Assembly: GCA_947632175.1 (NCBI GenBank)
Contig: CANROC010000001.1
Location: 186,001-250,000 of the forward strand
Reading direction: 5' to 3'
From: an uncultured Oscillospiraceae bacterium
Lineage (GTDB): Bacteria; Bacillota; Clostridia; Oscillospirales; Oscillospiraceae
DNA length: 64,000 bases
The notes under the pieces are model-generated. The model had not been told where the DNA came from and searched no databases. It worked only from the letters and a program-made list of their open reading frames with translations. Below are positions 1,536 through 58,069 of this stretch, piece after piece. The position numbers and the translations under genes were made by a program. The number at the start of each line of letters is the position of its first letter. Positions within the stretch are counted from its first letter, which is position 1.

Positions 1536-3449
1536 ATGGCAAAGAAACAATTCAAAGCGGAATCCAAGCGGCTTCTGGACCTCATGATCAACTCCATCTA
1601 CACCCACCGGGAGATCTTCCTCCGGGAGATTATCTCCAACGCCTCCGACGCCATCGACAAGCTGGCGTACAAGGCGCTGACGGACCAGAACGTGGGGCTG
1701 AGCCGGGAGGATTTCCGCATCCGCGTGGTGTTGGACAAGGACGCGCGGACCATCACCGTCTCCGACAACGGCATCGGCATGACGAAGGAGGAGATGGAGG
1801 AGAATCTGGGCGTCATCGCCCACTCCGGGTCCTTCAAGTTCAAATCCGAGCTGGACAAGGGCGAAAACGACGACGTGGACATCATCGGGCAGTTCGGCGT
1901 GGGGTTCTACTCCGCCTTCATGGTGTCCGACAAGGTGACGGTCCTCTCCCGGGCCTACGGCGCGGACGCGGCGTACAAGTGGGAGAGCGAGGGCGCGGAC
2001 GGGTACACCGTCACGGAGTGCGACAAGGAGACTGTCGGTACGGACGTCGTCATGCACATCAAGCCCGACGCCGGCGAGGAGCATTACGGGGAATTTCTGG
2101 AGACGTGGCGCATCAAGGAGCTCATCAAGAAATATTCCGACTACGTGCGCTTCCCCATCCGCATGGACATTGAGCACACGGAGTACGTGGAGACGGAGGA
2201 GCTCGACGAGCACGGACACAAGAAGACCGAGCCCGTCACCCACACCGAGGAGGAGACGGTCAACTCCATGGTGCCCATCTGGCAGCGGAGCAAGGCCGAG
2301 GCCACGGACGAGGCGTGTATCGCCTTCTATAAGGAGCGGTTCCACGACACGGAGGACCCGGTGGCGGTCATCCGCGTCAACGCCGAGGGGCTGACGAGCT
2401 ACCGGGCGCTGCTGTTCATTCCCGCCAAGGCGCCCTATGATTTTTACAGCCGGGACTACAAGCCGGGGCTGGCGCTCTACTCCTCCGGCGTGATGATCAT
2501 GGAGTCCTGCGCCGATCTTCTCCCCGAGTGCTTCCGCTTTGTGCGGGGCGTGGTGGACTCGCCGGACCTGAGCCTCAACATCTCCCGGGAGATCCTCCAG
2601 CACGACCGGCAGCTCAAGACCATCGCCGGGAACCTGGAGAACAAGGTCAAGGCGGAGCTTTTGAAGCTCCAGACCGCCGACCCGGAGAAGTACGACACTT
2701 TCTGGGCCGCCTTCGGCCGGCAGATCAAGTACGGCATCGTGGGCGACTACGGGATGAAGAAGGAGCTTCTGAAGGACCTTTTGAAGTTCTACTCCTCCAA
2801 CGACGAGAAGCTCACCACCCTCAAGGAGTACGTCTCCCGGATGCCCGAGGCGCAGAAGTACATCTACTACGCCGCCGCGGACTCCCTCCGCACCGCCGCC
2901 GGCCTTCCGCAGAATGAGCAGGTGAAGGCCAAGGGCTACGAGCTCCTCTACATGACCGAGGACATCGACGAGTTCGCCGTCCAGATGCTCTATAGCTACG
3001 ACGATAAGGAGCTCAGGAGCGTGGCCGCCGGGGACCTGGGGCTGGAGACGGAGGAGGAGAAAAAGGAGCAGGAGGAGACGGCCGGCAAGTCCAAGGAGCT
3101 GCTGGACTTCCTGAAGGAGACGCTGAAGGACGACGTGGCGGACGTGAAGCTCTCCAAGTCCCTGGTGTCCAGCGCCGTGTGCATGTCCTACGAGGGCGAG
3201 ATCACTCTGGAGATGGAGCGCTACTTCCGCCAGATGCCCGGCGAGGCCGGGGAGAAGATCCGCGCCAAACGGGTCCTGGAGCTCAACCCCGCCCATCCCG
3301 CTTTCGCCTCCCTCACCGCCGCCTTCGGGGCCGACCGGGACCGCGCCGGGAAGATCGCCCGGGTTCTGTGCGACCAGGCCAAGCTCCTGGCGGGGCTCCC
3401 TGTGGAGGACCTGGCGGCGTACTCCGAGGCGGTGTGCGGTCTACTTTAA
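1536..3449 (+). CDS. htpG: Chaperone HtpG (Hsp90)
   Basis: 637-aa bacterial Hsp90, a cytoplasmic ATP-dependent chaperone. The N-terminal GHKL ATPase domain shows NASDAID (35-41), DNGIGM (77-82) and GQFGVGFYSAF (118-128). The middle domain contains the conserved NISREILQ segment near residue 347, and the C-terminal dimerisation domain completes a normal length. It lies 28 nt after mntP with an AAGTAAGG ribosome site and no CIRCE box in the gap, so it is probably read with thrH-mntP. Its stop is followed within 3 nt by a structured hairpin element (3452-3642). Confidence 0.97.
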   Translation: MAKKQFKAESKRLLDLMINSIYTHREIFLREIISNASDAIDKLAYKALTDQNVGLSREDFRIRVVLDKDARTITVSDNGIGMTKEEMEENLGVIAHSGSFKFKSELDKGENDDVDIIGQFGVGFYSAFMVSDKVTVLSRAYGADAAYKWESEGADGYTVTECDKETVGTDVVMHIKPDAGEEHYGEFLETWRIKELIKKYSDYVRFPIRMDIEHTEYVETEELDEHGHKKTEPVTHTEEETVNSMVPIWQRSKAEATDEACIAFYKERFHDTEDPVAVIRVNAEGLTSYRALLFIPAKAPYDFYSRDYKPGLALYSSGVMIMESCADLLPECFRFVRGVVDSPDLSLNISREILQHDRQLKTIAGNLENKVKAELLKLQTADPEKYDTFWAAFGRQIKYGIVGDYGMKKELLKDLLKFYSSNDEKLTTLKEYVSRMPEAQKYIYYAAADSLRTAAGLPQNEQVKAKGYELLYMTEDIDEFAVQMLYSYDDKELRSVAAGDLGLETEEEKKEQEETAGKSKELLDFLKETLKDDVADVKLSKSLVSSAVCMSYEGEITLEMERYFRQMPGEAGEKIRAKRVLELNPAHPAFASLTAAFGADRDRAGKIARVLCDQAKLLAGLPVEDLAAYSEAVCGLL

Positions 3450-3451
3450 CT

Positions 3452-3642
3452 GGCTTTGAAGGCCGCGTTGCGGCCTTCAAATGCCAAGGGGAACGTGCGG
3501 AAGACCTCCCGGAAAAGCCTGCGGGCTTTTCCGGGAGGTCTTTCTGCTGTTTTGCTACGCGCACGGCCCCGTTGGGGCCGCACACTCCGCAAAACAAAAG
3601 GTATTTTTTCCGACGTACATGCCGCCGGAAAAAATGGCTCGG
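3452..3642 (+). repeat. Structured 3'-end element, copy A (after htpG)
   Basis: A roughly 190-nt block of successive hairpins begins 3 nt after the htpG stop. In order: hairpin 1 (arms TTTGAAGGCCGC / GCGGCCTTCAAA); the constant AAGGGGAACGTGCG; hairpin 2 with loop TGCGG; an outer stem TGTTTTGC (3548-3555) / GCAAAACA (3589-3596) enclosing a CGGCCCC/GGGGCCG hairpin; and a terminal TTTTTTCCG/CGGAAAAAA hairpin with loop containing GACGTACATGCC. The same order is found after guaB and after rplL. It could act as a tandem terminator, but its conserved loops exceed what termination needs. Confidence 0.75.
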
Positions 3643-3670: not shown

Positions 3671-3699
3671 TTGACAAATTGCTTGATTTGTGGTATAAT
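3671..3699 (+). promoter_or_regulatory. Consensus promoter pointing antisense into ridA-ilvA
   Basis: TTGACA (3671-3676), a 17-nt spacer ending in TGG, and TATAAT (3694-3699) followed by ACG. No plus-strand gene follows. Transcription would begin near 3706 and enter the 3' end of ridA antisense. It shares spacer wording with the promoters at 27543-27571 and 37691-37719. Confidence 0.7.
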
Positions 3700-17752: not shown

Positions 17753-18798
17753 CCCCCGGAGGGGCTTTGGGGGCGCGGGTCGTCGGGGCCGGTCTATTAC
17801 CCGACGCTCGCTTCCCCCCTGCCCCCCTCCTACGAGGAGGGGGCTTAAAAAGGATGCGCCGCTTTGCGGCGCAATTTTTATAAAAGGCGGCGCAAAGCGC
17901 CGCAGCCTTGTTCCCCTTGACCCCTTTTTCGGAAAAAGGGGTGCCGCCGCAGCGGCGGGGTATTCGAGCCCGTGGGGTGTAACGGATGTTTCCGGGAAAC
18001 CGAATGTGTTGCGTGCGGGCCGCCAAGAGTGGCGGCCCCTACGGCGGATAACGCAAACTGAAAAATAGACGCCCCCACCCTGCCCATCGCTTCGCTCGGG
18101 CACCCCTCCCGGAGGGAGGGGCAAAAAAAGTGCGTTGACGGAACTGGTTCGAAAAATCGCGCCCGCCCCCGTCTCGGAGCCCCCTCCTCGTAGGAGGGGG
18201 GCAGGGGGGGCAGCGAACGTTGGATGACAGAACGGTCCCGATAAAACAAATCCGCCCTAATCACCGCCGTACGGGCCGCCGCCCACGGCGGCCCCCCGTT
18301 GCAGATTTCGGATTGCCCCCGATAAACGCCGTAGGGGTCGCCGTCCCCGGCGACCCGCGTTTCAATGACCTCCCATATCGGTTGAATGGGATAACCTCCC
18401 ACATTCCCCGTAGGGGCGGACCCATGTGTCCGCCCGTGCCCACGTTGCGGAAAGGGAACGGTTCCGATAAAACGGTACATCCCGGTTATCGGGGGCAAGG
18501 GCCGCCGTGGGCCTGCGCCCGCAGGCGCGTTTCGGAGCGCAACCGCCGCGCAGCGGCGGCTCTTGGCGCGGAGATGCGGCCCGTACGGCGGTGTTCGGGA
18601 CGTGTCAATTTTCGATGGGCGGGTCGCCGAGGACGGCGACCCCTACGGCGGATTTCGCAGGCCGGTGGCGCGGCGGCGGGGGCGGGCGGGTGGGGAATCA
18701 AAGAATGCGGCGCAAGCCGCAAACCTTTTCCCGCCGCCGTGCCCTTTCGCCTCGCTGCGCTCGCCACCTCCCCCAAGGGGGAGGTTATAGGCCCGGGG
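17753..18798. repeat. Intergenic hairpin mosaic (XRE / M14 peptidase, convergent)
   Basis: About 1 kb without a gene between converging genes. Units in order include: the CCCCTCCTACGAGGAGGGGG palindrome (about 17822 and again 18181); GCGCCGC/GCGGCGC hairpins; the TTTTTCGGAAAAAGGGG block (about 17925); GGGCCGCC-AGGAGT-type hairpins (about 18006); TCGCC/GGCGA hairpins (18330, 18620); the GGGCGGACCCATGTGTCC hairpin (18411); linkers GATAAAACGGTACAT; and an interrupted hairpin at 18499-18582 with a 63-nt nested insert. Open frames here are by-products of GC-rich palindromes. Confidence 0.8.
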
Positions 18799-20085
18799 TT
18801 ATTTGGCGGTGACGGTGAGGCTGAGGGTCAGGATGCCCTCGTTGTCGCGGTAGAGCTGGTCGAACTGGGAGAGAGGGAGGGGGGCGAGGCCCTGGCCGGC
18901 CTCGACGGTGTAGCCGGGGCGGTTGAACTCCGCGATGAACCAGTCCTTGTAGCCGGCGTAGGCGGAGGCGGCGGGGGTGAGGGAGACCTGGTAGCCGCTG
19001 ACGGCGGCGAATCGGAGGGCGATCTCGTAGGAATTTTCCGGCAGGTAATCTAAATACTTCCAATAGATCACCTGGCCCTGGGTGTGGTAGGACAGGGTGA
19101 TGGCAAAATCATGCTGTCTCGTGAAATTGTAGACCGCGCGGCTTTCCGGTATCTCCAGGGGCGCGGCGCCCACATAATCCCGGGGCGCCGGGGAAACATA
19201 GCCCTGTGCGAATTTGATCTGGCGGGCCTCGTTCCAGCCGGCGGGATACTGGAGGTTGGGGTCCACGCCCTGGATGTTGGCCTTCCAGCCCGCAGGAAAG
19301 GCGATGGCCGGGTAGTCGGCGGCGATCTGCCGCGCACCCTCGTAAAACGGCCCCTCCGTCAGCTCCCCGGTGACCAGCGCCACGCCGTCCGGGTTGACCA
19401 TGGGCATCACGTAGAGCGTGGAGCGCTCATAGAGGCTCCGGGCGTTCTGGCCGAAGACGGTGAGGCCGGAGGCGTAGGCGTGGGCGTACTTTTCCAGAAA
19501 TTTCATGAGAAGTGGCGTGGTGATCCACTCGTTGGCGTGGTGGGAGGCGTTGTGGAACACCTGGTTGGGGCCGGCGCCAAGCTTCACCGTGTGCAGGGGC
19601 CGGCCCATGACGCTCTTCCCCGCCGAGCCCGGCTCCAGGAAAGGATACCGGGCGGCCAGGCCCCGGAGGCACAGCCCGAGGTACGTGGGGGTGAAGCGGA
19701 TGCCGGGATCGACCACGTCAAAGGGCCGGGGGACGGTGAGGGTGGAGCCTACCCGCAGGCGCGTGGGGTCCACACCGGGGTTGGCGGTCTCCAGCGCCCG
19801 GACGGTGATGCCGTTGGCCCGCGCCAGGGTATACAAGGTGTCCCCCGGCCGGACGGTGCGACGGAAGAAGCCGGTGAGCCAGCTTTCCAGCGAGGCCCAG
19901 GTACGGTTCCCCGCCACGCCGTCGGGGACGAGGCCGAAGGCGGACTGGTAGGCCCGCGTGGCGGCCAGCGTCTCCGGGCCGAAGACGCCGTCCGGGGCAA
20001 AGCGAAGATAGCCGGCCCGCCCGAGGCCCAGCTGCAAAAGCTCCACCCAGGGGCCCCGGTCTCCCAGACGTAAAACCTTAAACAA
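18799..20085 (-). CDS. Peptidoglycan-binding M14 zinc carboxypeptidase
   Basis: 428 aa in three parts: a peptidoglycan-binding type 1 domain (about 5-70), a LysM repeat (about 76-120, RPGDTLYTLARANGI) and an M14 metallopeptidase domain (130-428). Zinc ligands are seen in HHANEW and SYHTQGQ, and the catalytic glutamate is in YTVEAGQG. This architecture matches gamma-D-glutamyl-meso-diaminopimelate peptidases that trim cell-wall peptides, often in sporulation or germination. No signal peptide is visible, so it may act in the forespore or mother cell or leave by another route. The likely start is TTG with GGGGAG 8 nt upstream. Confidence 0.85.
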   Translation of the reverse strand: MFKVLRLGDRGPWVELLQLGLGRAGYLRFAPDGVFGPETLAATRAYQSAFGLVPDGVAGNRTWASLESWLTGFFRRTVRPGDTLYTLARANGITVRALETANPGVDPTRLRVGSTLTVPRPFDVVDPGIRFTPTYLGLCLRGLAARYPFLEPGSAGKSVMGRPLHTVKLGAGPNQVFHNASHHANEWITTPLLMKFLEKYAHAYASGLTVFGQNARSLYERSTLYVMPMVNPDGVALVTGELTEGPFYEGARQIAADYPAIAFPAGWKANIQGVDPNLQYPAGWNEARQIKFAQGYVSPAPRDYVGAAPLEIPESRAVYNFTRQHDFAITLSYHTQGQVIYWKYLDYLPENSYEIALRFAAVSGYQVSLTPAASAYAGYKDWFIAEFNRPGYTVEAGQGLAPLPLSQFDQLYRDNEGILTLSLTVTAK

Positions 20086-22264: not shown

Positions 22265-22443
22265 CGAGCCATTTTTTCCGGCGGCATGTACGTCGGAAAA
22301 AATTTCTTTTGTCACGCAAGTGTGCCGCTTGCGGCGCGCGCAGCGTGACGGCAGAAAAAAATTTCGGAAATGTCCGCAGACATTTCCGAAATCTTTTTCG
22401 CACGTTTCCCCTTGGCATCGAAATGCCAAAGGCATTTCGAGCC
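22265..22443 (-). repeat. Structured 3'-end element, copy C (after rplL)
   Basis: On the minus strand this begins about 5 nt after the rplL stop and repeats the htpG/guaB element: hairpin 1 (TCGAAATGCC / GGCATTTCGA), the constant AAGGGGAAACGTGCG, hairpin 2 (GATTTCGGAAATGTC, loop TGCGG), an outer stem (plus 22310-22317 with 22343-22350) and the terminal TTTTTTCCG/CGGAAAAAA hairpin with loop GACGTACATGCC. Stem sequences differ from copy A on both arms while pairing is kept. Confidence 0.75.
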
Positions 22444-22447
22444 AAGC

Positions 22448-22828
22448 TTACTTCAGCTCGACCTTGCCGCCGGCTTCCTCCAGCTTCTTCTTGAGCTCCT
22501 CGGCCTCGTCCTTGGAGCAGGCTTCCTTGATGGTCTTGGGAGCGCCCTCGACGGTGGCCTTGGCCTCGGCCAGGCCCTGGTTGGTGATCTCGCGGACGGC
22601 CTTGATGACCTTGATCTTGGAAGCGGCGTCGAAGCCGGCCAGGACCACGTCAAACTCGGTCTTCTCCTCGGCGGCGGGGGCAGCGGCGGCGGCGCCGGCG
22701 GCGGGAGCGGCCATGGCGGCGGCGGAGACGCCAAACTCCTCCTCGAGAGCATGTACGAGCTCGGAGAGCTCAAGAACGGTGAGAGCCTTGATCTCGTCGA
22801 TCAGGGCGGTGACTTTTTCAGCAGCCAT
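22448..22828 (-). CDS. rplL: 50S ribosomal protein L7/L12
   Basis: 126-aa stalk protein of the large ribosomal subunit, which recruits translation factors. It has the N-terminal dimerisation helices, an Ala-rich hinge (about 35-58), and the globular C-terminal domain [27 protein letters not shown]. Second gene of the rplJ-rplL pair, 44 nt after rplJ. In most bacteria rpoB follows; here the operon ends in the structured element and a repeat mosaic. Confidence 0.98.
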
Positions 22829-23406: not shown

Positions 23407-23544
23407 GTTTTTTCACCTCCACGGTTTTGATGGCGTCCACAGAAAATGCCCCGACGCGCAAAGCATCGGGGCACGGTAAAGCAAATCGCATTTGCCGCCC
23501 TCGGCAGGATTTACGTGTCGCCACACCTGCTGTCTTTGGAACGC
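23407..23544 (-). promoter_or_regulatory. L10 (rplJL) autoregulatory leader
   Basis: The roughly 138-nt leader on the minus strand shows the conserved L10-leader words GACAGCAGG and AATCCTGCCGAGG, which pair in the kinked stem bound by L10. A GC hairpin TGCCCCGA/TCGGGGCA (plus 23443-23472) with a short U-run follows and is the probable attenuator. Confidence 0.88.
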
Positions 23545-23550
23545 TATGGC

Positions 23551-23579
23551 ATCATACCACAGCTTTTTTCGCCTGTCAA
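23551..23579 (-). promoter_or_regulatory. Promoter of rplJL
   Basis: Minus-strand TTGACA (plus 23574-23579), a 17-nt spacer and TATGAT (23551-23556), placing the start of transcription at the 5' end of the L10 leader. Confidence 0.88.
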
Positions 23580-50226: not shown

Positions 50227-51421
50227 TAGCGCCAATTTCGCCCCCGTCGTAGGGGGGCGAGCGTTGATTGACGGACCGGTATCGATGACCCGCCCCGCCA
50301 AAGCCCCTCCCTCCGGGAGGGGTGCCCGAGCGCAGCGACGTGCAGGGTGGGGGCGTCTATTTTTCCCGCCTGTAGGGGCCGCCACTCTTGGCGGCCCGCG
50401 TTGCGTCTATTGACCCGTCCCAATCACCGCCGTACGGGCCGCATCTCCGCGCCAAGAGCCGCCGCTGCGCGGCGGTTGCGCTCGTGATGCGCGCCTGCGG
50501 ACGCAGCGCCCACAGCGGCCCGTGCTTTCGTTGACCGACATGTACCGTTTTATCGGAACCGTTCCCGTAATACAACGTGGTCACGGGCCGCCAAGAGTGG
50601 CGGCCCCTACGGCGTAATTGGGGCGGATTCGGTTTATCGGAACCGCTCCGAAAACGCACCTTTTTGCCCCTCCCACGGAGGGGCGGCACGAAGCACCGAA
50701 AGGGTCCGCGCGGCGGCGGGAAAAAGGTTTGCGGCTGACGCCGCATTCTTTATATTCCCCACCCGCCCGCCCCCGCCGCCGCGCCACCAGCCCGCGAAAT
50801 TTGCCGTAGGGGTCGCCGTCCTCGGCGACCCGCCCATCGAAAATTGACACGTCCCGAACACCGCCGTACGGGCCGCTGCCCACAGCGGCCCTTTTTCGTT
50901 GACCGACATGTACCGTTTTATCGGAACCGTTTCGTTACGCAACGTGGGCACGGGCGGACACATAGGTCCGCCCCTACGGGGGATATGGAAGGTTATCCCA
51001 TTTAACCGACATTGGATGTTGTCGCAACGCGGGTCGCCGAGGACGGCGACCCCTACGGCGTTCATCGGGGGCAATCCGAAATCTGCAACGCGGGCCGCCA
51101 GGAGTGGCGGCCCCTACGGCATAATTGGGGCGGATTTGTTTTATCGGAACCGGTTGGATAACACACCCTGTAGGGGCCGCCACTCCTGGCGGCCCGCACG
51201 TAGTATGTCTCGTTTATCGGAAGCCCCAGCGACTCTCCACGGGCTCGAATACCCCGGCCCTGCGGGGCCACCCCTTTTTCCGAAAAAGGGGTTGGGGGAA
51301 TAAGGTTGCGGCGCTTTGCGCCACCTTTATAAAATATTGCGCCGCAGGCGCAACCTTTTTCGCCCCCTCCTCGTAGGAGGGGGGCAGGGGGGCAGCGAGC
51401 GTGGGACATGAGAGCGGTATC
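50227..51421. repeat. Longest intergenic hairpin mosaic (convergent, secreted protein / ABC permease)
   Basis: About 1.2 kb with no gene. Units seen: CCTCCCTCCGGGAGGGG (50308), GGGGCCGCC-ACTCTT (50374), an interrupted hairpin with insert (50436-50521), GGGCCGCC-AAGAGT (50586), the GAATGCGGC block inverted (about 50690-50790), TCGCC/GGCGA hairpins (50806, 51028), GGGCCGCT-GCCCAC-AGCGGCCC (50869), GGGCGGACACATAGGTCC (50953), GGGCCGCC-AGGAGT (51089), GGGGCCGCC-ACTCCT (51172), the TTTTTCGGAAAAAGGGG block (51278) and CCCCTCCTCGTAGGAGGGGG (51363). Linkers TTTATCGGAACCG and GACATGTACCGTTTTATCGG recur. Confidence 0.82.
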
Positions 51422-57032: not shown

Positions 57033-57095
57033 ACCCGGCTTTGTGCCAAGAAAACCGTACGAAAGCCCCGGCGTGCTTCACGCCGGGGCCTCCAG

Positions 57096-57380
57096 CCTGT
57101 CGAAAAAGGCCTGCGGCCTTTTCCGACAAAGGGGAACGTGCGAAAAAGATTTCGGAAATGTCTGCGGACATTTCCGAAATCTTTTTCTGCTGTTTTGCTC
57201 CGCGCACGGCCTCGTCGTCGCCGATGCCGCTTTGCCTCGGGCTCCCTCCGGTCGCCCTCGGGCGCTGGCATCGCTCCTCCTCCCCCCAGCGGGCTTCGCC
57301 CGCCGGGGACCCCGGTCCGCACACTCCGCAAAACAAAAGGTATTTTTTCCGACGTACATGCCGCCGGAAAAAATGCTCGA
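57096..57380 (+). repeat. Structured 3'-end element, copy B (after guaB)
   Basis: A hairpin CCCCGGCG/CGCCGGGG lies directly after guaB (57066-57088), then the three-copy element: hairpin 1 (TGTCGAAAAAGGCC / GGCCTTTTCCGACA), AAAGGGGAACGTGCG (57128-57142), hairpin 2 with loop TGCGG, outer stem TGTTTTGC (57191-57198) / GCAAAACA (57328-57335) and the terminal TTTTTTCC hairpin (about 57343-57373). Its central arm carries about 95 nt more than copy A, so that region tolerates large insertions. Confidence 0.75.
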
Positions 57381-58069
57381 TTTGAGTTTTTTGGCAAACT
57401 GAAGGCCCCGGCGTGTTTTATGCCGGGGCCTCCCTTTGTTTTGCCGCGCGGCACCACCCCTGCCGCTTGCGCGGCTGTCCCCTCCGTAGGAGGGGCAACG
57501 TAGTTGGAGGTAGGTGCGGTTTGTCGGGACCAATCTGTCATCCAACGTTCGCTTCCCCCCTGCCCCCCTCCTACGAGGAGGGGGCTCCGAGACGGGGCGG
57601 TTGCGTTTTATCGGAACCGCTTCAATATCGCAACCTCTTTTGCCCCTCCCTCCGGGAGGGGTGCCCGAGCGAAGCGACGGGCAGGGTGGGGGCGTCTATT
57701 TCACCTGTTTGCGTTATCCGCCGTAGGGGTCGCCGTCCCCGGCGGCCCTTGCTTCCGATAACCGACATTTTTCGTTTTATCGGAACCGTTCCCGTTCACG
57801 CAACGTGTCACGGGCGGACACATGGGTCCGCCCCTACGGGGAATGTGAAAGGTTATCCCATTCAACCAACGCCGGAGGTCATCGCAACGCGGGCCGCCAA
57901 GAGTGGCGGCCCCTACAGCGTTTGTCGGAGGCAATCAGAAACCTGCAACGCGGGTCGCCGGGGACGGCGACCCCTACGGCGTTTGTCGGGGGCAATCCGA
58001 ACCCTGCAACGAGGGCCGCTGTGGGCAGCGGCCCGTACGGCGTTAACTGAAAGCACTCCAAAAAACTGC
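57381..58069. repeat. Intergenic hairpin mosaic (guaB / glyA, convergent)
   Basis: No gene. A second CCCCGGCG/CGCCGGGG hairpin (57405-57432) closes the guaB side. Then follow a CCCCTCCGTAGGAGGGG palindrome (57478), CCCCTCCTACGAGGAGGGGG (57563), CCTCCCTCCGGGAGGGG (57645), TCGCC/GGCGG (57727), GGGCGGACACATGGGTCC (57812), GGGCCGCC-AAGAGT (57890), GGGTCGCC-GGGGAC (57951) and GGGCCGCT-GTGGGC-AGCGGCCC (58013), with GGTTATCCCATTCAACC and TTTATCGGAACCG linkers. Confidence 0.8.

Follow-up and report, generated by a model that had tools for sequence, protein, structure and literature searches.

The REP/BIME repeats, mobilised by Y1 transposases of the RAYT type, occur as many palindromic extragenic copies, often at gene ends, and group IIC introns, too, are found behind terminators. 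According to the title of a 1999 paper, the insertion sequence (IS) IS1630 of Mycoplasma fermentans is said to target and duplicate inverted repeats. In the passages of PMC3317919 concerned with it, IS1630 encodes its own transposase, has 27-bp terminal repeats and generates duplications of 16, 23, 25 and 26 bp. Bacterial miniature inverted-repeat transposable elements (MITEs) such as QMITE2, BOX, RUP and ERIC are short, non-coding and foldable, have terminal inverted repeats and a target duplication, and reach tens of copies (PMC10969869); the sections of that review consulted here mention terminator-like repeats and no hairpin-duplicating family. The present analysis deals with a repeat found 3' of htpG, rplL and guaB in 64,000 nucleotides of an uncultured Oscillospiraceae bacterium (contig CANROC010000001.1, positions 186,001 to 250,000 of the forward strand), a stretch referred to below as the window. 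The repeat is probably a mobile but non-autonomous element, about 190-310 bp long, with a hairpin-duplicating insertion and a conserved fold that lies antisense to the upstream gene.

An earlier note, made from the sequence of the window alone, had taken the three blocks for copies of one structured element. Reading of the sequence located all three blocks at the positions given for them, and the upstream genes encode HtpG, ribosomal protein L7/L12 and IMP dehydrogenase (NCBIfam names). That the three blocks represent a single element was borne out by a covariance model, which recovered about 55 strong copies in the same genome. The htpG and guaB copies share the outer stem TGTTTTGC/GCAAAACA, and that of the rplL copy is GTCACGC/GCGTGAC. 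The stem alleles were thus as described, while the odd copy is that of rplL, the second in the earlier list, where labels B and C had been exchanged. In the guaB copy the inner hairpin is enlarged by about 95 bases (core of 238 vs 142 bases). The fold of the htpG copy had an energy of -113.1 kcal/mol (z -10.2 vs shuffles). When 42 copies from the source genome (G000) were classed by the right end of the element, it was absent from 24 (type I) and present in 18 (type II). The three copies, treated earlier as one situation, fall into both classes, those of htpG and rplL being type I and that of guaB type II. The features in the window are as follows.

3450 to 3640, plus strand: copy A (type I), immediately 3' of the htpG stop codon at 3447-3449; from the sequence.
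3450 to 3486, plus strand: hairpin P0 of copy A (CTGGC...GCCAA); from sequence and fold.
3499 to 3544, plus strand: hairpin P1 of copy A, a variable two-armed stem with a TGCG loop; from fold and alignment.
3549 to 3595, plus strand: P2/P3 of copy A, an outer stem GTTTTGC/GCAAAAC with an inner hairpin; from fold and alignment.
3603 to 3635, plus strand: hairpin P4 of copy A, with the conserved loop GTACATGCC; from alignment and pair counts.
22268 to 22446, minus strand: copy B (type I), 1 nt past the rplL stop codon at 22448-22450, with the outer stem GTCACGC/GCGTGAC; 155 bits.
57065 to 57089, plus strand: terminator-like hairpin of guaB, upstream copy, with no T run behind it; from the sequence, duplication score 46.
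57093 to 57402, plus strand: copy C (type II), 3' of guaB, bounded by the terminal inverted repeats CAGCCTGTCGAAAAA / TTTTTTGGCAAACTG; 167.5 bits.
57342 to 57374, plus strand: hairpin P4 of copy C; from sequence and pair counts.
57405 to 57431, plus strand: downstream copy of the guaB hairpin, the duplicated target, with T-rich sequence behind it; from the sequence.

The type II copies carry the evidence for mobility. Their ends are CAGNCTGTCGAAAAA and TTTTTTGACANNCTG, they are mostly preceded by a hairpin, and their terminal inverted repeats are imperfect, 15 bp long and approximately CAGNYTGTCRAAAAA at both ends, the left end often being GAGACTGTC. The element is thus MITE-like, being short and non-coding, with terminal repeats and a target duplication in the type II copies. 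The hairpin upstream of the element recurred just downstream in 12 of the 18 type II copies of the source genome (score of at least 32), a count for which no null was computed, and the downstream hairpin commonly had a T run behind it. Among 120 loci from other genera, flanking duplications were present in 36 of the 109 usable copies (score of at least 36) vs 2 of 2000 mismatched pairs. The two sides were identical in 17 of these 36 cases, with lengths mostly of 22-42 bp; the length of the duplication follows that of the hairpin and is about 20-40 bp in most cases. Two further copies in the genome G081 each lie between two copies of their own hairpin.

Sites with and without the element could be compared between genomes. 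The guaB terminator is uninterrupted in two congeners and in a third is broken by the left end of the element, where the contig stops. On the 3' side of rplL the element lies between two hairpin copies in G019, and the same hairpin is single in G001 and G012. The type II sites L015 and L024 have clean empty counterparts in the sister species G015. Within 0.79 Mb of G015, seven type II and 11 type I sites were mapped by their upstream flanks. Six of the seven type II sites were without the element, and the seventh had a shortened type I copy at a different spot. The link to gene 3' ends proposed in the earlier note is therefore present but at least partly an insertion habit of the type II copies, since these are flanked by duplicated hairpins and come and go between sister species.

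The type I copies presented a different picture. Most start with CTGGC immediately 3' of a stop codon, and 18 of the 24 were placed by script 0-6 nt past a sense stop codon. Of the remaining six, L009, L013 and L023 were misparsed by the script and lie at 0-1 nt by eye, L037 and L043 lie at 36 nt, and in the sixth (L046, near 2510) the coding frame of the upstream gene appears by eye to end inside the element, whose first bases would provide its stop codon. The copies L027, L028, L037 and L043 have a type-II-like first hairpin and no right end. Among 49 rows of stop-codon copies, some of them type II, there was no flanking duplication above the null maximum of 11, and the sole match scoring 11 was the type II copy L035. 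At the 11 type I sites mapped in G015 the position was kept throughout, with a complete element at eight and a remnant or interrupted copy at three; an element is also present 3' of htpG in that genome (site e39). The upstream flanks were 85-97% identical between the species, and at the eight complete sites P1 differed on both arms in all eight and the P2 stem in six. Five P1 alleles were found with more than one P2 allele within the genus. Given these differences at kept positions and the reassortment of alleles, it seems that copies exchange whole hairpins, possibly by recombination among dispersed copies. Another small repeat, starting with GGGGCTGTGAAAAAAG, was observed inside P1 of the type I copy L297 (G015 C18, minus strand near 19950).

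A rival explanation is a host device in the 3' untranslated region (UTR), a conserved multi-hairpin terminator or mRNA-stabilising end that was spread by duplication and kept for its role. The script placements and the positions kept in G015 speak for such a device, as does rplL, where eight genomes, that of the source included, have either a type I element or a relative that has diverged, and several others have a plain terminator. Against it, three congeners lack any match (see below), and type II copies, with their terminal repeats and duplicated hairpins, are gained and lost. Furthermore, several P1 alleles have no U tract, and the better fold is that of the antisense strand, which the upstream mRNA does not carry. 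This explanation is considered unlikely, and the reading as a mobile element is retained, under which old copies at stop codons may be tolerated or used as 3' UTRs.

The number of copies was determined in several ways. Search of the source genome by blastn gave at least 55 matches (best 40 of 124 candidates scored), far more than chance would yield. Comparison of 38 stretches side by side led to an alignment of 35 copies and a consensus with 41 predicted pairs, 18 of which showed changes on both sides. The covariance model built from the 35 copies gave at least 131 matches in the source genome (best 150 of 2228 candidates), many of which are antisense echoes of palindromes, and 55 of them exceeded 115 bits. 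Copy A was matched at G000:C1:189486-189641 with 183 bits. Matches were also present in 34 of 60 related genomes, so further copies, whose absence would have counted against the earlier note, exist both in the source genome and in relatives. Within the genus, 31 of 34 genomes had at least one match, the counts ranging from 0 (the congeners G003, G007 and G021) to at least 50; G015 had 48 matches above 119 bits. G042, which belongs to another family, had 66 diverged matches sharing the loop GTACAYGCC and the right end AACTCTGCGAGGC.

This exact combination of loop and right end occurred in at least 120 stretches of the species collection, with Papillibacter cinnamivorans, Pseudoflavonifractor gallinarum, Faecousia and Limivicinus among the matches listed, and in eight viral contigs; the exact P4 of the source genus was found in no viral contig. 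One viral contig copy (L329, near 11567, minus strand) has the hairpin GGGGGCTGTTGCAGAACAGCCCC on both sides, which suggests that the element also reaches phage-like sequences. Across the order the exact pattern was present in 7 of 295 genomes, four of them with 45-61 copies each, and a reversed control pattern gave no match in the 295 genomes. The figure of seven is a lower bound for the family because the exact pattern misses the copies of the source genome. The distribution is patchy, and the element is often dense where it occurs. Hairpin P1 was absent from the other-genera copies that were read, and in L083, L192, L088 and L143 the P4 loop was enlarged by tens of bases holding hairpins of their own. 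No match of the element to Rfam 15 reached the threshold, in the window or in the relatives tried; a sub-threshold V_AS7 match (L101:3981-4149, minus strand, 62.7 bits vs a cut-off of 90) lay away from the element. The family was not recognised as described in Rfam 15 or in the open-licence literature searched. Palindromic candidate RNAs from microbiomes are reported in PMC8040213 and may include the present family.

The claim of covariation was examined with an order-wide alignment of the antisense strand, which comprised 33 copies from other genera (28 from the species collection and five from viral contigs). Copies were kept only if they matched a motif before P4, which gave 36 references; L085, L105 and L146 were omitted because they were short, long or almost identical to another copy. 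The loop GTACAYGCC and the right end are invariant in this alignment by design of the search, and their conservation was not counted as evidence. Of the 24 pairs, 15 had changed on both sides, and the covariation score was 0.464 vs 0.170 for shuffled alignments, none of 500 shuffles reaching the observed value. Slid versions of the structure scored at most 0.074, a comparison that favours the tested structure, as it was drawn by hand from the same sequences. The covariation asserted for three copies was therefore supported statistically.

Counts of wobble pairs were used to decide which strand folds. If the coding-strand RNA folded and marked the 3' ends of highly expressed genes, as first supposed, the two-sided stem changes in three copies, the sense orientation after three genes and the UNCG-type P1 loops read on the coding strand would all find an explanation. 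However, pairs in distinct hairpins of the coding strand comprised 22 G.T and 41 A.C (two-sided p 0.02, although the rows are not independent), the G.T/A.C counts being 7/14 in P1, 1/3 in P2, 6/14 in P4 without its fixed second pair and 8/10 in P5. Control tRNA stems from the same loci gave 12 G.U and no A.C (25 stems), and a small set of terminator stems gave 7 and 2 (66 stems). The fixed A.C pair of P4, present in 177 of 217 cases on the plus strand, is a G.T wobble on the opposite strand. The order-wide antisense alignment had 329 Watson-Crick, 32 G.U and no A.C pairs in P4 and 310, 91 and 11 in P2, giving a total of 123 G.U vs 11 A.C. Near-invariant U.G/G.U neighbours, which look like tandem wobble pairs, were present in 32 and 33 of the 33 copies, and an arrangement GTGCGA/GAGTGC resembling tandem G.A pairs was present in 14.

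Fold energies pointed to the same strand. With RNA parameters the antisense strand folded more stably in all 42 copies of the source genome and in 68 of 80 copies elsewhere. In a comparison with dinucleotide shuffles, for which every third copy was used, the energy difference between the strands was 14.7 kcal/mol for 14 copies of the source genome and 6.9 kcal/mol for 27 elsewhere vs 3.4 and 1.7 kcal/mol for the shuffles. As the shuffled differences were smaller, base composition accounts for only part of the strand bias. On the minus strand P2/P3 forms a single long hairpin, as seen in the minus-strand fold of another copy and in the order-wide pairs. The fold is real, and the evidence places it on the strand complementary to that of the upstream gene. 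A fold of the coding-strand RNA is disfavoured by the wobble counts and the fold energies alike and is regarded as very improbable.

Two further explanations were weighed. One takes the covariation to be mutational, template switching keeping DNA palindromes perfect without selection on the fold. It would account for the swapping of hairpins between copies and for the situation within the genus, where the coding strand shows no excess of G.T over A.C and 979 of 1008 P1 pairs are Watson-Crick, but it would erase the strong order-wide strand asymmetry and the conserved wobble positions, and it is judged improbable. The other is a gene for an antisense RNA, which would act as a structured RNA in its own spread (as template, guide or scaffold) or in regulation. 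The order-wide covariation favours it, together with the excess of G.U over A.C, the tandem U.G/G.U pairs and the GTGCGA/GAGTGC arrangement, all on the antisense strand. G.T wobble and G.A pairs are tolerated in single-stranded DNA as well, however, no conserved promoter was recognised by eye, and a scan of copy A gave only a weak minus-strand match at the edge. An antisense RNA gene is accordingly a serious possibility, though somewhat short of an even chance.

For the mobile element, the following steps are inferred. A transposase or integrase supplied in trans would recognise a cruciform or hairpin, such as a terminator, as its target. A cut at both feet of the target hairpin, followed by repair, would duplicate the hairpin, so that one terminator would remain functional. 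The machinery may recognise the antisense strand in its folded form, either as RNA or as single-stranded DNA, and this proposal would explain why the fold outlives the sequence. The stricter version, in which shape alone is read, both feet of any terminator hairpin serve as cut sites, the hairpin is duplicated, and the folded antisense strand is the form recognised, is doubtful. If it were true, spread without a resident transposon copy would represent a new, shape-directed way of moving.

Several results weigh against a mobile element of this kind. The type I copies have neither the right end nor a target duplication, and an origin of type I by insertion is thus unsupported. No clear flanking duplication was found in 73 of the 109 copies from other genera or in six of the 18 type II copies of the source genome. 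Two of the 36 duplications (L113, 106 bp, and L091) resemble other repeats. Only 14 of the 36 passed a strict palindrome score, which 3 of 500 random 30-mers also passed; nearly all of those that failed still hold a hairpin by eye. Only e6 and e15 were clean among the six type II sites that lack the element in G015. Site e11 was mapped with 81% within repeat sequence, and the neighbouring G015 sequence is different at e9, e16 and e40. The stems within the source genus have few wobble pairs on either strand. Finally, neither an autonomous element nor a convincing mobiliser was found in the genomes searched, and the mobiliser is therefore hypothetical.

The search for a mobiliser covered both related elements and known transposases. 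No autonomous transposon with the same ends was found in 1.04 Mb of G000 and G015, where 46 of 109 left-end-like matches had no P4 within 450 bases and by eye were chance matches or shortened copies. The spacing of ends in three genomes with intact duplications gave no autonomous element either; in G080 and G081 paired ends were separated by about 200 bp, and the ends of G082 were mostly unpaired. Exact hairpin repeats 0.7-5 kb apart (36 cases) were by eye other repeats, and no family search was made on their open reading frames. Three arrangements of two inverted copies around genes (L123, L181 and G081 C3:2641-5744) were considered as candidate autonomous copies and rejected. The longer inverted pair of G081 encloses two genes. 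None of the six genes tested between paired copies was a transposase according to Pfam: five encode DAHP synthase (L123), a Clp protease, a Bmp-type binding protein, a cell-wall hydrolase and a member of glycosyl hydrolase family 32, and the sixth had only a sub-threshold SurA_N_3 match.

IS30 elements were present in 22 of 80 genomes searched, including the copy-rich G015, G010 and G011. IS30 was rejected as the mobiliser, as it had no match in the copy-rich genomes G000, G042 and G077 and the IS30 copies beside P4 have other ends. IS30 elements with these ends, CAAGTGCAACA, are inserted directly beside P4 in L299, L300 and L321 of two congeners; the left end was not seen in L300. The Y1 transposase (PF01797) was found in 2 of 13 genomes, as two fragments in G000 and one gene in G025, and was not detected in G015, G042, G077, G099, G144 or G160. 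A Y1/RAYT transposase was likewise rejected, its presence being uncorrelated with copy number. The fragments are L338 and L339 (G000 C2:143596-143799 and C1:5103-5273), one of them about 330 bases from the copy at C1:5607-5818.

Other features were observed in the surroundings of the copies. A sigma-70 promoter match of 12/12 (TTGACA, 17 nt, TATAAT) is located at 3671-3699 on the plus strand of the window, just past the htpG copy, and the open reading frames of at least 150 amino acids that start just past it are on the opposite strand. An ordinary L10 leader (RF00557) lies at 23433-23557 on the minus strand, about 0.6 kb upstream of rplL and on the same strand. Other short intergenic palindromic repeats are present in the window at 18096-18660, 21923, 50370-51130, 53811 and 58012; examples of such repeats are GGGCCGCTGTGGGCAGCGGCCCGTACGGCGTT in the window and ACGGGCGGGTTTAGAACCCGCCCCTAC in G015.

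The element constitutes a dense repeat family of gut bacteria that lands beside terminators and leaves one intact, and thereby rebuilds gene ends. It also illustrates that repeat families can mimic cis-regulatory RNA and that wobble counts made with regard to strand can tell the folded from the coding strand. Because the targeting is apparently shape-directed, the way in which transposases locate palindromes becomes open to direct tests. Novelty is claimed only relative to the literature searched and Rfam 15.

Compared with group IIC introns and the IS605-type elements (HEARO/omega RNA), the element shares a structured RNA on mobile DNA, its RNA form being a candidate, whereas it has no Rfam match and no coding gene was seen in it. 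REP/BIME repeats are similar in their palindromic copies at gene ends, but the element differs from them by its flanking duplication and terminal repeats, and Y1 was absent from five of the six copy-rich genomes tested (G015, G042, G077, G099 and G144), the sixth, G000, having only two fragments. The element resembles MITEs in being short, non-coding and foldable, in its terminal inverted repeats and target duplication, and in its tens of copies. Unlike MITEs, it has a whole hairpin duplicated as the target and a fold that covaries between bacterial families, and no parent IS was found. IS1630 differs in that the element is non-coding and has 15-bp ends, and the IS30 copies in congeners have other ends. 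Nevertheless, the closest known behaviour is that of this IS30-type element of M. fermentans, with which the family shares a duplication of inverted repeats of variable length.
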